A stretch of DNA of 64,000 nt. It comes from Halococcus sediminicola (GTDB taxonomy: Archaea > Halobacteriota > Halobacteria > Halobacteriales > Halococcaceae). The notes below the pieces were generated by a model, which saw only the letters and a list, made by a program, of their open reading frames with translations, had not been told where the DNA came from and did not search any database. The stretch lies in NCBI RefSeq assembly GCF_000755245.1, contig NZ_BBMP01000022.1, positions 806,001 through 870,000 of the forward strand, read 5' to 3'. Within the stretch, counting starts at the first letter, position 1, and each line of letters starts with the position of its first letter. The position numbers and the translations under genes are program-made. Of the stretch, positions 33,073 to 38,306 are shown in pieces.

Positions 33073-33993
33073 ATGGTCACCATCGACCAGCCCTCGCTGC
33101 TGACAGCCGCCTACGCCGCGGGCGTGTTGATGTTCTTCGCACCGTGTAGCGTCGGCCTGCTCCCCGCATATCTGACCTACTACTTCACTCACGACGCCGA
33201 AACTGACGGCGGAACTGCCACCGCGACGAGCACCAGTTCGGGGGGTTTCGCGCGGCAGCTGCTGCTCGCAAACGGCGTCCTGCTCTTTCTCGCCGGGGCG
33301 ATCCCCCTGTTCTATATGGCGACGGCGGGGATCCGTCTGCTGTTGCCTGGCTATGACCTCGTCGTCCCGCTCGCAAAACTCGGCACGGGAAGCTACCTCC
33401 CGCCCGTGGCGGCGGTGTTCGTCGGCACGGGACTGTCGGTCGCCGCCACCGGCCGGCGCGGGGCGCGGGGGCTTCGCGTCGGCGGTATCGCCACCCTCGG
33501 TATCGTTCTGCTCTACCTACTCGTCGGCGGCGTCGTGCTCGTCGTCGGCGAGTGGATACGACCGTACCTCGCCTCGCTCGAACTGCTCGTCGGCCCGTTG
33601 CTGGTGGCGCTCGGCATCGCCTACTACTCCGGTATCTCGCCGCTGCGCGCCATCGAACTCCCCGAGCGCGGCGAAGTCTCGGATTCGGAGTTCTTCACGT
33701 TCGGCTTGCTCTACGGCGTCGGCAGCCTCGCCTGTAATCTCCCGGTGTTTCTGGGCGTTGTGCTCTCGTCGTTTTTCACCGGCACGTTCCTCTCGGGACT
33801 GGCGGTCTTCGCCGCCTTCGCCGCCGGGATGGGCACGCTGATGATCGGGCTGAGCGTCGTCGCGGGTCTCACCGAAGGATCGCTCTCGCTCGGGCGCTAC
33901 GCCGCGCCGATTCAAACGATTGGGAGCGCCGCGTTCGTTCTCATCGGGCTGTACGTGACGTGGTTCACGCTGCGCTCGTTCGGTTATCTATGA
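33073..33993 (+). CDS. ccdA: Cytochrome c biogenesis / thiol-reductant transporter CcdA
   Basis: A 306-residue membrane protein with about eight helices. The redox-active cysteines are Cys25 (FFAPCSVGLLPAYLTYY) and Cys221 (SLACNLPVFLG), the two that pass electrons across the membrane in CcdA/DsbD. A loop of about 20 residues after helix 1 is Thr/Ser/Ala-rich. It supplies reductant to extracytoplasmic thioredoxin-like proteins; no such partner is adjacent. Confidence 0.9.
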   Translation: MVTIDQPSLLTAAYAAGVLMFFAPCSVGLLPAYLTYYFTHDAETDGGTATATSTSSGGFARQLLLANGVLLFLAGAIPLFYMATAGIRLLLPGYDLVVPLAKLGTGSYLPPVAAVFVGTGLSVAATGRRGARGLRVGGIATLGIVLLYLLVGGVVLVVGEWIRPYLASLELLVGPLLVALGIAYYSGISPLRAIELPERGEVSDSEFFTFGLLYGVGSLACNLPVFLGVVLSSFFTGTFLSGLAVFAAFAAGMGTLMIGLSVVAGLTEGSLSLGRYAAPIQTIGSAAFVLIGLYVTWFTLRSFGYL

Positions 33994-35082: not shown

Positions 35083-35105
35083 CCGGTTCACGACGACGCT
35101 CCCAC

Positions 35106-36509
35106 ATGACCTTCGTCGTCATCGGCGGCGATGCCGCCGGCATGTCCGCGGCGAGCAAGGCGAAACGCGATGCGCCCGACACCGAGGTGGTCGTCTTCGA
35201 GGCCGGCGAGTGGGTCTCGTATGGGGCCTGTGGCCTGCCCTACTACATCAAGGGCGAGATCCAGTCGCTCGACGACCTCGTCTCGGTCACGCCCGAGGAG
35301 TTCCGCGAGCAGCGAGACATCGACCTCCGGACGGGCCACGAGGTCGTCGCCATCGACCCGGATGGAAAAACCGTCACGGCTCGTGGGGAGAGCGAGGTCG
35401 TCCAAGAGTACGATCAACTGTTGATCTCGACCGGTGCTGCGGCCGTTGAGCCGCCGATCGACGGGCTCGACAGGGACGGTGTCTATACACTCGGTTCGAT
35501 GGCCGACGGCAAGGACCTCCGCGAGTACGTCTCGCGGGCGCGTACCGAGGGCGATCTCCAGCAGCCGGACAGCGGTCCCGCGTGTGAGTTCCTCGAAACC
35601 TGCAACGGTCCCGTGGGGGTCGTCGGCGGCGGCTACATCGGCATCGAGATGGCCGAGGCGCTCGCCGCCAACGACTTCGAGGTGCATCTCTTCCAGCGCG
35701 GTGATCGGCTGCTGAAATCGTTCAGCGAGGCGACGAGCGAGGCCGTTCTCGACCATCTCCGTGAACAGGACGTGGCGGTGAACCTCGGTGCCGAAGTCGC
35801 GGAACTCGCCGGCGGCGACCGGGTCGAGGCGGTCGTCACCGACGCGGGACGGACGCCCGTCGAGATGGTGCTCGTCGGAACCGGCGTCAGTCCACGGACG
35901 GACCTCGCCGAAGGGGCAGGAATCGAACTGGGCGAGACGGGAGCCATCGCGGCCGACGAGTATCGAGAGACCAGTATTTCGGACGTCTACGCGGCCGGCG
36001 ACTGTGCGGAGGCCGATCACGTCGTCACCGGCGACCCTGTGCACGTGCCGCTCGCGCTGACGGCCAACCGACACGGCCGGGCGGTCGGCCAGACGATTGC
36101 AGGGAACCCGACGAAAGGCGGCCCCGTCGCGGGCACGGCGGCGGTCAAGGCGTTCGACGTCGAGGCCGCTCGTACCGGTATTCTCGACCACGAGACGGCC
36201 CGCGACGCCGGCTTCGACCCCGTTACCGGAACCATCGACGCGAAATCGCGTGCCGGCTACTATCCCGAGGGCGGCACCGTGAGAGTGACGATCACGGCCG
36301 ACCGCGAATCCGGGCGCGTGCTGGGCGGGAGCCTCGTCTCCGAGTACGGCGAGGGGGCCGTCCACCGGAGTCACGCGCTCGTGGGCGCGGTCACGGAGGG
36401 CGTCACGCTCGCCGAACTCTCGAACTACGACCTCGCGTACGCACCGCCGTTCAACACGACGTGGGATCCGGTGCTGACGGCCGCGAAGGTGCTTGATGGC
36501 GACCGATAA
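35106..36509 (+). CDS. FAD-dependent CoA-disulfide reductase / NADH oxidase-type enzyme
   Basis: A 467-residue pyridine-nucleotide disulfide oxidoreductase of the single-cysteine class. The active cysteine is Cys42 in WVSYGACGLPYYIKG. An FAD motif (VVIGGDAAGMSAASKAK) opens the protein, an NAD motif (GVVGGGYIGIEMAEALA) is near residue 178, and VYAAGDCAEADH is the second FAD signature. The C-terminal dimerisation domain is complete. Family members reduce CoA disulfide, CoA persulfide or oxygen, and which applies is open. It stands before the selenium-binding protein gene, which has its own promoter. Confidence 0.87.
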   Translation: MTFVVIGGDAAGMSAASKAKRDAPDTEVVVFEAGEWVSYGACGLPYYIKGEIQSLDDLVSVTPEEFREQRDIDLRTGHEVVAIDPDGKTVTARGESEVVQEYDQLLISTGAAAVEPPIDGLDRDGVYTLGSMADGKDLREYVSRARTEGDLQQPDSGPACEFLETCNGPVGVVGGGYIGIEMAEALAANDFEVHLFQRGDRLLKSFSEATSEAVLDHLREQDVAVNLGAEVAELAGGDRVEAVVTDAGRTPVEMVLVGTGVSPRTDLAEGAGIELGETGAIAADEYRETSISDVYAAGDCAEADHVVTGDPVHVPLALTANRHGRAVGQTIAGNPTKGGPVAGTAAVKAFDVEAARTGILDHETARDAGFDPVTGTIDAKSRAGYYPEGGTVRVTITADRESGRVLGGSLVSEYGEGAVHRSHALVGAVTEGVTLAELSNYDLAYAPPFNTTWDPVLTAAKVLDGDR

Positions 36510-36584
36510 CCGAGATCGATCACGCCGCCCCTCGTGTGTCGGTACCACCAAACACTTATTCGCAGCCCAACAGTAGCGTGTCGG

Positions 36585-37988
36585 ATGAGCACCGACGAGC
36601 CGAGCGACACGGGGACCGCACACGGCCACGAACACCACGACGTCGAGGGACCGGGCTATCCGACGCCGGCGGCGATGCGGACCGAGTCCGGCCGGGAGAA
36701 AACGGCGTTCGTCATGGCACCGCGGGTCGGGATGGACAGTGACAAAGCGGATTTCGTCGGTGTCGTCGATGTCGACCCCGACTCGGAGACGTACAGCGAA
36801 ATCGTCGACACGCTGGAGATGCCGAACCGGGGCGACGAACTCCACCACTTCGGCTGGAACAGCTGTTCGTCGTCGTGTCACACCGAAGGACTCCAGCGCG
36901 ACCACCTGATCGTTCCCGGCCAGCGCTCCTCGCGTATCCACGTTCTCGACGCATCCGACCCACGGAACCCCGAAATCGAGCGCGTCATCGAACCCGAGGA
37001 GGTCTTCGAGTACGACCTCTCGGCACCCCACACCGTCCATTGCGTGCCGGGCGGAAAGATCGTCATCAGCATGCTCGGGAACGCCGACGGCGAACTCCCT
37101 GGAGGATTCCTCCAACTCGACCAGGAGGACTTCTCCATCGACGGCCACTGGGAAGCCGACCGCGGTGACGTCGAGATGCAGTACGACTACTGGTATCAGC
37201 CTCGCCACGGCGTGATGCTCTCGACGGAGTGGGCCGCCCCGAAGACCTACTACCCCGGCTTCGACTTCGACGACGTCGAGGCGGGCAACTACGGCGACAG
37301 CATCCACATCTGGGACTGGGAGTCCAGAGAGCATCGGGAGACGCTGACGTTCGGCGAGGAGGGACTAATCCCGCTGGAGATCCGCATGCTCCACAACCCC
37401 GAGGCGACCGAGGGATATGTGGGAGCGGCGCTCTCGTCCAATATCATCCGTTTTTGGGAGCGAAACGACGGGGCGTGGGACTGGGAGAAAGTCATTGACA
37501 TCGAGGAGCGCGAGCACCCCGACTGGGAGATGCCCGTGCCGGGACTCGTCACAGACACCCTCATCTCGCTCGACGACCAGTACCTGTTCTTCTCGAACTG
37601 GCTGCACGGCGACTGCCGGATGTACGACATCAGCGACACGGGCAACCCGCGGCTCGTGGACCAGATCTGGGCCGGCGGTAACTTCGGCGACCGACAGGAG
37701 GTACAAGGAACGGAGATCCGCGGCGCGCCACAGATGCTCCAACTCAGCCGCGACGGCCGCCGACTCTACTGGACGACCTCGCTGTTCTCGTCGTGGGACA
37801 ACCAGTTCTACCCCGACATCGCCGAGGAAGGCTCGCTGATGATGAAGGCCGACGTCTACCCCGAGAAGGGGCGGATGGAACTCGACGAGGACTTTCTAGT
37901 CGACTTCGGCGACGCACCCGGCGGGCCGGCGCGCGCCCACGAGATCCGCTGGCCGGGCGGCGACTGCACGAGCGACGTCTGGCAGTAG
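36585..37988 (+). CDS. Selenium-binding protein (SBP56) / methanethiol oxidase family
   Basis: A 467-residue protein matching SBP56/SELENBP1, which in bacteria and humans oxidises methanethiol to formaldehyde, sulfide and peroxide. Seen are GYPTPAAMRTESGREKTAF, the cysteine/histidine core HHFGWNSCSSSCHTEG, SAPHTVHCVPGGKIVIS and the C-terminal RAHEIRWPGGDCTSDVWQ. A His-rich N-terminus (HGHEHHD) may bind metal. The TATA-like acttatt is 27 nt before ATG 36585. The stop is followed at once by a ferredoxin start codon. Confidence 0.92.
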   Translation: MSTDEPSDTGTAHGHEHHDVEGPGYPTPAAMRTESGREKTAFVMAPRVGMDSDKADFVGVVDVDPDSETYSEIVDTLEMPNRGDELHHFGWNSCSSSCHTEGLQRDHLIVPGQRSSRIHVLDASDPRNPEIERVIEPEEVFEYDLSAPHTVHCVPGGKIVISMLGNADGELPGGFLQLDQEDFSIDGHWEADRGDVEMQYDYWYQPRHGVMLSTEWAAPKTYYPGFDFDDVEAGNYGDSIHIWDWESREHRETLTFGEEGLIPLEIRMLHNPEATEGYVGAALSSNIIRFWERNDGAWDWEKVIDIEEREHPDWEMPVPGLVTDTLISLDDQYLFFSNWLHGDCRMYDISDTGNPRLVDQIWAGGNFGDRQEVQGTEIRGAPQMLQLSRDGRRLYWTTSLFSSWDNQFYPDIAEEGSLMMKADVYPEKGRMELDEDFLVDFGDAPGGPARAHEIRWPGGDCTSDVWQ

Positions 37989-38306
37989 ATGGCCCACGAG
38001 GTGATGCTCGACTGGCGCGATGGCCCGGACCGAACTATCGAGGTCGATGGCGACGAGACTGTCGTCGAGGCCGCCGAACGGGTCGGGATGAACCTCCCCT
38101 ACGGCTGTCTGTACGGGGTTTGTGGAACCTGTACGGCCCGCCTGCTCGCGGGCAAACTCGTCCACACCGAGCGCCCGCGTGCGCTGAAACCTCGCCACAG
38201 CGAGGCGGGCTATGTCCTGCTCTGTGTGGCGAAACCCCGGTCTGACTGTCGCGTGGAGGTCGGGGCGACGGTGCAGGCCGACCTCGTCTCGAACCCCTGG
38301 AAGTGA
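37989..38306 (+). CDS. [2Fe-2S] ferredoxin
   Basis: A 105-residue plant-type ferredoxin. The cluster cysteines are 40, 45, 48 (CLYGVCGTC) and 79 (YVLLC). It is shorter than the usual haloarchaeal ferredoxin and lacks the acidic N-terminal insertion of about 30 residues typical of that protein. The ATG directly abuts the SBP56 stop codon with no gap, which points to co-translation and a joint role, possibly as electron acceptor for SBP56. Confidence 0.92.
   Translation: MAHEVMLDWRDGPDRTIEVDGDETVVEAAERVGMNLPYGCLYGVCGTCTARLLAGKLVHTERPRALKPRHSEAGYVLLCVAKPRSDCRVEVGATVQADLVSNPWK

Follow-up and report, generated by a model that had tools for sequence, protein, structure and literature searches.

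The window analysed here, a 64,000-nucleotide stretch of the Halococcus sediminicola genome (GCF_000755245.1, contig NZ_BBMP01000022.1, positions 806,001 to 870,000), contains a gene of the SBP56 family directly followed by a gene for a small [2Fe-2S] ferredoxin, a pairing that we found to be kept across two domains of life. The SBP56-family gene runs on the forward strand, as do all features of the pair given below, from 36585 to 37988 (ATG at 36585, TAG at 37986-37988; 467 amino acids), and the ferredoxin gene occupies 37989..38306 (ATG at 37989, TGA at 38304-38306; 105 amino acids). The spacing between the TAG and the next ATG is 0 nucleotides (37988 to 37989), with both genes in the same frame, which confirmed the abutment of the two genes noted in a preliminary description of this DNA. 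The title of that description called the genes fused, which was wrong: they are two separate, adjacent open reading frames. No true gene fusion was seen: an SBP56 stop codon precedes the ferredoxin at every locus with both genes traced (49 archaeal loci including the window, and 82 bacterial loci). A TATA-like box recognised by eye at 36555..36561, about 27 nucleotides 5' of the SBP56 ATG, suggests a leaderless two-gene transcript.

The product of the first gene carries an SBP56 domain (PF05694) over residues 21-466 (E-value 2.9e-192; 639.9 bits against a Pfam gathering score of 34). It was compared with its relatives in an alignment of 136 homologues, paired and unpaired, with one split gene, one fragment at a contig end and one remnant excluded; residues of human SELENBP1 were mapped by motif and spacing, with the human sequence outside the alignment. 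We found the pattern of a SELENBP1-type copper thiol oxidase: His87-His88 (human His73/His74; 36843..36848), His149 and His152 of the HTVH motif (human His137/His140; 37029..37040), Asp201 (human Asp189; 37185..37187) and Glu265 (human Glu252; 37377..37379) are identical in 136/136 sequences. It has been reported that mutating these six residues strongly lowers the methanethiol oxidase activity of the human and worm proteins, and that copper content is lowered by only four of the six mutations (PMC10362175). All three cysteines of the cluster 1 methanethiol oxidases (MTOs) are also present, namely C94 (GWNSC in the window), C153 and C461, kept in 136, 136 and 132 of the 136 homologues; Cys461 (37965..37967) belongs to the GGDC(T/S) motif, whose cysteine is reported to be catalytic in cluster 1 MTOs (PMC10936201). 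His452 (37938..37940; 135/136) was paired by its C-terminal position, without an alignment, with His412 of Hyphomicrobium MtoX, a putative copper ligand (PMC5739008). Near the other end lies a His-rich stretch, HGHEHH (residues 13-18; 36621..36638), in a region of the alignment where bacterial paired homologues mostly read CCGPGY and haloarchaeal ones are often His-rich before GPGY. The N-terminus (MSTDEPSDTGTAHGHEHH...) shows no hydrophobic signal stretch by eye, and the protein looks cytoplasmic. The label methanethiol oxidase, used in the preliminary description, held at the level of SBP56 family membership but not at that of the MtoX equivalog model NF052453, where the protein scored 122.7 bits and missed the cut-off of 650. 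We regard it as a candidate copper thiol/methanethiol oxidase.

The second gene product meets the definition of a plant-type [2Fe-2S] ferredoxin, with a Fer2 domain (PF00111; E-value 2.5e-16; 59.8 bits against 21) and four cysteines in the order CX4CX2C...C. Three of these form the cluster-binding loop C40-X4-C45-X2-C48 (38106..38132) and the fourth is C79 (38223..38225). The plant ferredoxin model TIGR02008 scored highest among the curated models while staying under its cut-off (65.4 bits against 81.15), and the NCBIfam models next in rank were BenC, PaaE and MmoC, which are electron-donating oxygenase components. The general halophile ferredoxin model NF041393 gave only 39.8 and 38.6 bits in two runs against a cut-off of 150, a score that is exceeded at two other loci in this genome. 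The earlier proposals that the protein lacks the N-terminal insertion usual in halophiles and is distinct from the general cellular ferredoxin were thereby upheld. Its C-terminal NPWK (38292..38303) is a signature of SBP56-linked ferredoxins: the archaeal ones listed always end in [N/T]PW plus one residue, and the bacterial ones carry an additional tail after LYRNPF (LYVNPF in Paracoccus). An [N/T]P[W/F]-tailed ferredoxin beside SBP56 could thus serve in genome surveys as a gene signature that separates this branch from periplasmic MtoX. A second ferredoxin, Fd2, has SPW near its end, lies 5' of SBP56 in four haloarchaeal loci (L046, L053, L054 and L055) and stands without an adjoining SBP56 in others (L081-L085); in the ferredoxin tree Fd2 forms one group (support 99) inside the SBP56-linked archaeal ferredoxins. 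At two Fd2 loci (L081:6830-7590 and L083:6741-7474) the gene is convergent with a NifU_N gene (SufU-like; tested in L081), overlapping it by 4 nucleotides, with an aminotransferase class V (SufS-like) gene close by; both genomes hold the SBP56-ferredoxin pair elsewhere.

The pairing was followed in 146 relatives belonging to the same genus, family or order as the window. SBP56 was found in 48 of them, and at 48 of 50 SBP56 places the next gene 3' on the same strand, within 183 nucleotides, is a ferredoxin homologue; this count leaves out the N-terminal portions of two genes that had each matched twice. Of the two places that depart from the pattern, one (G097) is a fragment at a contig end and the other (G139) a remnant of 59 residues; 3' of the remnant (L078) no ferredoxin was found, and Fd2 is kept in that genome. 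At another locus (L076:8023-9760, in G064) SBP56 is split by an insert of about 1.7 kb encoding an IS605-type OrfB/TnpB, and the 3' ferredoxin frame is open. All 44 of the strongest ferredoxin matches (E-value 2.2e-30 or better) adjoin SBP56, and in relatives that lack SBP56 the only ferredoxins of this kind are Fd2, a fragment at a contig end (G090) or homologues at E-values of 1e-25 and weaker. A phylum-wide sample yielded SBP56 in 20/392 genomes, all in the order of the window. Uniqueness of the pairing to this strain, which the preliminary description had named as a refutation of its reading, does not apply.

Little else around the pair is conserved. Across 61 clustered loci (51 around SBP56 and 10 around other ferredoxins) SBP56 occurred in 51, the ferredoxin family in 50 and no other family in more than 12, as counted with a crude gene caller that overlooks some ferredoxins. 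Gene order around the pair is kept between close relatives and differs between families. This comparison led us to reject a wider operon with the oxidoreductase, DUF2270 or MMPL genes of the window as conserved partners. Within 1.5 kb on each side of 30 loci, matches to the oxidoreductase were confined to the window and part of L004, and those to MMPL to the window itself; DUF2270, whose window copy lies outside that reach, had no match. Over a range of about 7 kb, the window oxidoreductase and MMPL fell in no family of more than two proteins (DUF2270 was missed by the gene caller). One genome (G067) has ferredoxin, SBP56 and Fd2 in a row, and in another (G111) the two families that flank this row enclose Fd2 alone, which looks as though SBP56 and its ferredoxin had been gained or lost together.

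The pair turned out not to be an archaeal peculiarity. Bacterial homologues 52% identical to the window protein, on plasmids of Phaeobacter inhibens and Paracoccus seriniphilus, also have a [2Fe-2S] gene next to them, and a genome scan that started from the Phaeobacter protein revealed the ferredoxin directly 3' of SBP56 in 80/80 loci. These are the best 80 of at least 562 relatives, picked for closeness to the Phaeobacter protein and silent on remoter branches; they include many marine alphaproteobacteria and come from Rhodobacteraceae, SAR11, SAR116, Granulosicoccaceae, Geminicoccaceae and others. Judged from the 48/50 archaeal places and the 80/80 bacterial loci, the ferredoxin looks like the dedicated partner that it had earlier been proposed to be, and the same adjacency, amid surroundings mostly unrelated between families, probably reflects functional coupling. 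A tree of SBP56 (76 rows, quick search, some long branches) placed the paired archaeal proteins in one clade (support 100) and the paired bacterial proteins in another (98), and both clades together with Rubrobacter were fully supported as split from Sulfolobus and the rhizobial type.

The spacing of the two genes and their shared history point in the same direction. With the possible ferredoxin start nearest the SBP56 stop chosen in each case, which favours small gaps, the spacing is -4 or -1 nucleotides in 68/82 bacterial pairs; among 49 archaeal pairs, from which three loci without the C-terminal motif (L069, L078 and L079) were dropped, it is 0 or -4 in 18 and more than 60 in 4. It has been reported that translational reinitiation in Haloferax and E. 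coli needs very short distances or overlaps, and that genes encoding heteromeric complexes are enriched in short overlaps (PMC10666635). We infer that the two genes may be translationally coupled and that their products may bind each other. There are signs of co-inheritance: distances between SBP56 proteins correlate with those between their ferredoxins (r 0.673 for 49 archaeal pairs and r 0.932 for 70 pairs; 0/1000 permutations as high, with both values inflated by shared ancestry), and in a genome with two pairs (G069) the three nearest relatives of each ferredoxin are those of its neighbouring SBP56.

Substrate context came mainly from bacterial neighbourhoods, examined for 82 pairs (the 80 scan loci and the two plasmid loci) over about 4 kb on each side where the contig allows; family counts are lower bounds, with one or two members per family tested against profiles. 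Near the pairs we found families whose tested members were a CoA-binding protein (at least 56 loci), enoyl-CoA hydratase (at least 48), a DmdA-like protein (at least 10), acyl-CoA synthetase (at least 7) and a persulfide-dioxygenase-like protein (at least 6). A rhodanese-looking family is present in at least 9 (rhodanese confirmed in Phaeobacter), and a family with a Rieske oxygenase-like member in 24/82. The Paracoccus locus has a copper chaperone 3' of the pair (PF09948, over cut-off) and a formaldehyde dehydrogenase near it (TIGR02818, over cut-off). These neighbours fit a reaction with methanethiol in and formaldehyde plus sulfur out. A dimethylsulfoniopropionate (DMSP) pathway beside the bacterial pair was considered and is suggestive only: the DmdA-like protein scored 381.2 bits against 410, and two acyl-CoA synthetases tested against the methylthiopropionyl-CoA ligase model scored 295.3 and 288.5 bits, far short of its cut-off of 822. 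A methanethiol source in the archaeon was sought with the methionine gamma-lyase model, which gave only paralogues below cut-off (best 395.2 bits against 549.7). Methanethiol is, by homology alone, a putative substrate in haloarchaea. Cluster 1 MTOs with the same three cysteine motifs consume methanethiol (PMC10936201), and methanethiol oxidase, labelled "SELENBP1/mtoX", has been predicted in most SAR116 subclades (PMC12262181).

Taken together, these results led us to propose that the two genes encode a two-component redox module made of a cytoplasmic copper thiol oxidase and a dedicated ferredoxin as its likely electron donor, a proposal to which we give a probability of about 0.5. SBP56 would be a cytoplasmic copper enzyme that cleaves methanethiol, or a small thiol like it, into an aldehyde and reduced or sulfane sulfur, and the ferredoxin from the next cistron would be its dedicated electron carrier, with electrons most likely passing from ferredoxin to SBP56. 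The ferredoxin might keep copper as Cu(I) or return it to that state, such that O2 is reduced to water instead of being released as peroxide; alternatively, it might reduce a persulfide on the catalytic cysteine and so regenerate the cysteine. Electron donation would in this way offer a route round peroxide in the cytoplasm and a means of sulfur release from the cysteine persulfide, and the cytoplasm is a sensible place for an enzyme with a ferredoxin partner, in contrast to the periplasm, where MtoX resides. According to the preliminary description, the known methanethiol oxidases consume oxygen and produce peroxide. This is disputed: H2S and H2O2 are the products in one report (PMC10362175), whereas sulfane sulfur and water, with no H2O2, are the products reported for the Rhodobacteraceae enzymes (PMC10936201). 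More tentatively, and with rather less confidence than in the module itself, we suggest that the pair might be an unrecognised two-component copper oxygenase, in which electrons from the ferredoxin would make SBP56 a monooxygenase-type C-S lyase (thiol + O2 + 2e- -> aldehyde + H2S + water). Such an enzyme would be common to haloarchaea, SAR11, SAR116 and roseobacters, would there consume DMSP-derived methanethiol, and would explain the disagreement between H2O2 and sulfane sulfur by assays run without the partner.

The roles that the ferredoxin might play otherwise were weighed against the same evidence. We consider it more likely to be a donor than an acceptor, because its oxygenase relatives (BenC, PaaE and MmoC) are donors and because acceptance looks uphill. 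As an acceptor, the role first put forward in the preliminary description, it would make SBP56 a thiol dehydrogenase (thiol + water -> aldehyde + sulfide) that passes on two electrons one by one with no oxygen or peroxide involved; the dedicated pairing fits this equally, and haloarchaeal 2-oxoacid oxidoreductases do use ferredoxin as acceptor. Formaldehyde couples lie near -0.2 V, however, and plant-type ferredoxins near -0.3 to -0.4 V, so the electron step would run uphill unless this ferredoxin is unusually positive, and the groups carrying the pair are typically aerobes. The lack of H2O2 in assays of cluster 1 enzymes is consistent with any non-peroxide route, yet these enzymes consumed methanethiol with ferredoxin unmentioned in the accessible text (PMC10936201), and we judge an acceptor role improbable. 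Somewhat less improbable, though still unlikely, is a maturation or maintenance factor that acts outside each turnover, either by reducing Cu(II) to Cu(I) during copper loading or by reducing a disulfide or persulfide of SBP56. MtoX genes cluster with SCO1/SenC and MauG genes (PMC5739008), the Paracoccus pair is followed by its copper chaperone, and an open SBP56 persists on plasmids whose ferredoxin is decayed or absent. Such a factor, however, needs neither tight coupling nor one-to-one co-inheritance, and the Paracoccus chaperone is the only copper gene recognised beside the pair in profile-library searches that took in a minority of the neighbour families. Mere co-transcription, with the ferredoxin serving another enzyme such as the Rieske oxygenase encoded 5' in some SAR11 loci, would accord with the Rieske oxygenase-like family at bacterial loci and with Fd2, of the same lineage, standing without an adjoining SBP56 in several haloarchaea. 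We find it very hard to reconcile with the retention of SBP56 as partner in two domains amid otherwise changing neighbours, and with the closest ferredoxins in the 146 genomes occurring only with SBP56.

Several observations weigh against the proposed two-component module. Plasmid copies were examined on the 8 named haloarchaeal plasmids within the best 40 of 74 SBP56 records; the closest named SBP56 homologues among the matches listed are Natronorubrum plasmid genes (85%). Four of the eight have the ferredoxin beside SBP56 (Natronorubrum aibiense, Natronococcus occultus, Halocatena salina and Haladaptatus halobius), and the other four have an open SBP56 and no intact adjacent ferredoxin. In Natronorubrum bangense the ferredoxin is reduced to its first four codons (MHRV, by eye) next to an SBP56 98.7% identical to the paired protein of N. 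aibiense, in Natrinema gelatinilyticum it is disrupted by stops and frameshifts, and in Haloterrigena turkmenica and Natrinema salinisoli no ferredoxin match lies within 3 kb of SBP56. Three changes on the tree are required to explain the ferredoxin state among these plasmids. Since SBP56 is open on four of the eight without an intact ferredoxin, the ferredoxin may not be strictly required, or may be supplied from elsewhere. Furthermore, recombinant cluster 1 MTOs, which may or may not belong to the paired branch, act on methanethiol in vitro with ferredoxin unmentioned in the accessible text (PMC10936201), and a ferredoxin reductase gene is not part of the conserved unit in the loci compared. 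Five remoter bacterial loci lack such a ferredoxin in the 4-5 kb 3' of SBP56: Rubrobacter (L091) and, at about 40% identity, Phyllobacterium, Azospirillum, Gemmatirosa and Caballeronia, the latter four having a membrane-protein gene there (by eye). The ferredoxin tree, with too few columns, left it unsettled whether the archaeal and bacterial SBP56-linked ferredoxins are sisters. In a second genome with two pairs (G044) the nearest-relative match is full for one pair and partial for the other. Finally, a single-chain AlphaFold model, in which the in-frame TAG stop was read as Gln, has low confidence at the junction and is too weak to reveal an SBP56-ferredoxin interface (mean predicted local distance difference test score 73.1, predicted template modelling score 0.73).

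Searched against Pfam and NCBIfam, the window neighbours comprise DUF2270, a pyridine nucleotide-disulfide oxidoreductase, a ferredoxin, an MMPL transporter, a helix-turn-helix regulator and one protein without a match. The oxidoreductase, a flavin adenine dinucleotide/nicotinamide adenine dinucleotide (FAD/NAD) enzyme resembling coenzyme A-disulfide reductase below cut-offs, is encoded directly 5' of SBP56 (35106-36509, forward strand), and Natronorubrum aibiense (L190) has a different Pyr_redox_2 protein 3' of its pair; either could be a ferredoxin reductase. Farther 5', the forward strand encodes a CcdA-like membrane protein by eye (33073-33993; FFAPCSVGLLPAY) with no Pfam match at 0.01. 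An open frame of 748 codons on the reverse strand (35088-37334), antisense to the oxidoreductase and SBP56 genes, probably arises from the high G+C content. In two haloarchaea that lack the ferredoxin (L186:4550-5329 and L187:4589-5317), the gene 3' of SBP56 encodes a membrane protein that has no Pfam match and resembles ZIP metal transporters by eye. On a plasmid of Microvirga ossetica (L179:4476-8525), a [2Fe-2S] protein of 340 residues is encoded with a CueR-type regulator on one side and a heavy-metal P-type ATPase on the other, which puts a ferredoxin domain in a copper-related cluster.

The global organic sulfur cycle includes methanethiol oxidation as one of its steps. If the paired branch in SAR11 and roseobacter genomes works with the ferredoxin encoded beside it, assays run on SBP56 alone may misreport the reaction. 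A description of the SBP56-ferredoxin pair was not found in full-text searches, which leave most subscription papers outside their coverage, nor in the accessible text of PMC8371827. The cluster 1 MTOs of Rhodobacteraceae, RdMTO and RlMTO, share the GWNxCS, HTVHC and GGDC(S/T) motifs with the window protein but were characterised as single proteins, with ferredoxin or 2Fe-2S appearing 0 times in the main text (PMC10936201). Hyphomicrobium MtoX is likewise an SBP56 protein with putative His copper ligands and a conserved redox and maturation neighbourhood, and is 26-29% identical to archaeal homologues; it differs in having a signal peptide, a periplasmic location and SCO1/SenC and MauG neighbours (PMC5739008), genes that Pfam and NCBIfam did not reveal among the neighbours of the window SBP56. 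For human SELENBP1, all six sites of activity-suppressing mutations have equivalents in the window protein, whereas a ferredoxin partner is unmentioned in the accessible text and the enzyme is reported to release H2S and H2O2 (PMC10362175). The Sulfolobus tokodaii structure 2ECE is 47% identical to the window SBP56 and has the same copper-site residues, but it lies across a fully supported split from the paired clade and reads GGDASSD, without the GGDC cysteine. The general halophile ferredoxin (NF041393; PDB 1DOI and 1E0Z) has the same plant-type [2Fe-2S] fold as the ferredoxin of the pair, which differs in its missing N-terminal insertion and its NPWK tail. SBP56 and methanethiol oxidases are already known, and what appears to be new here is their pairing with a ferredoxin.

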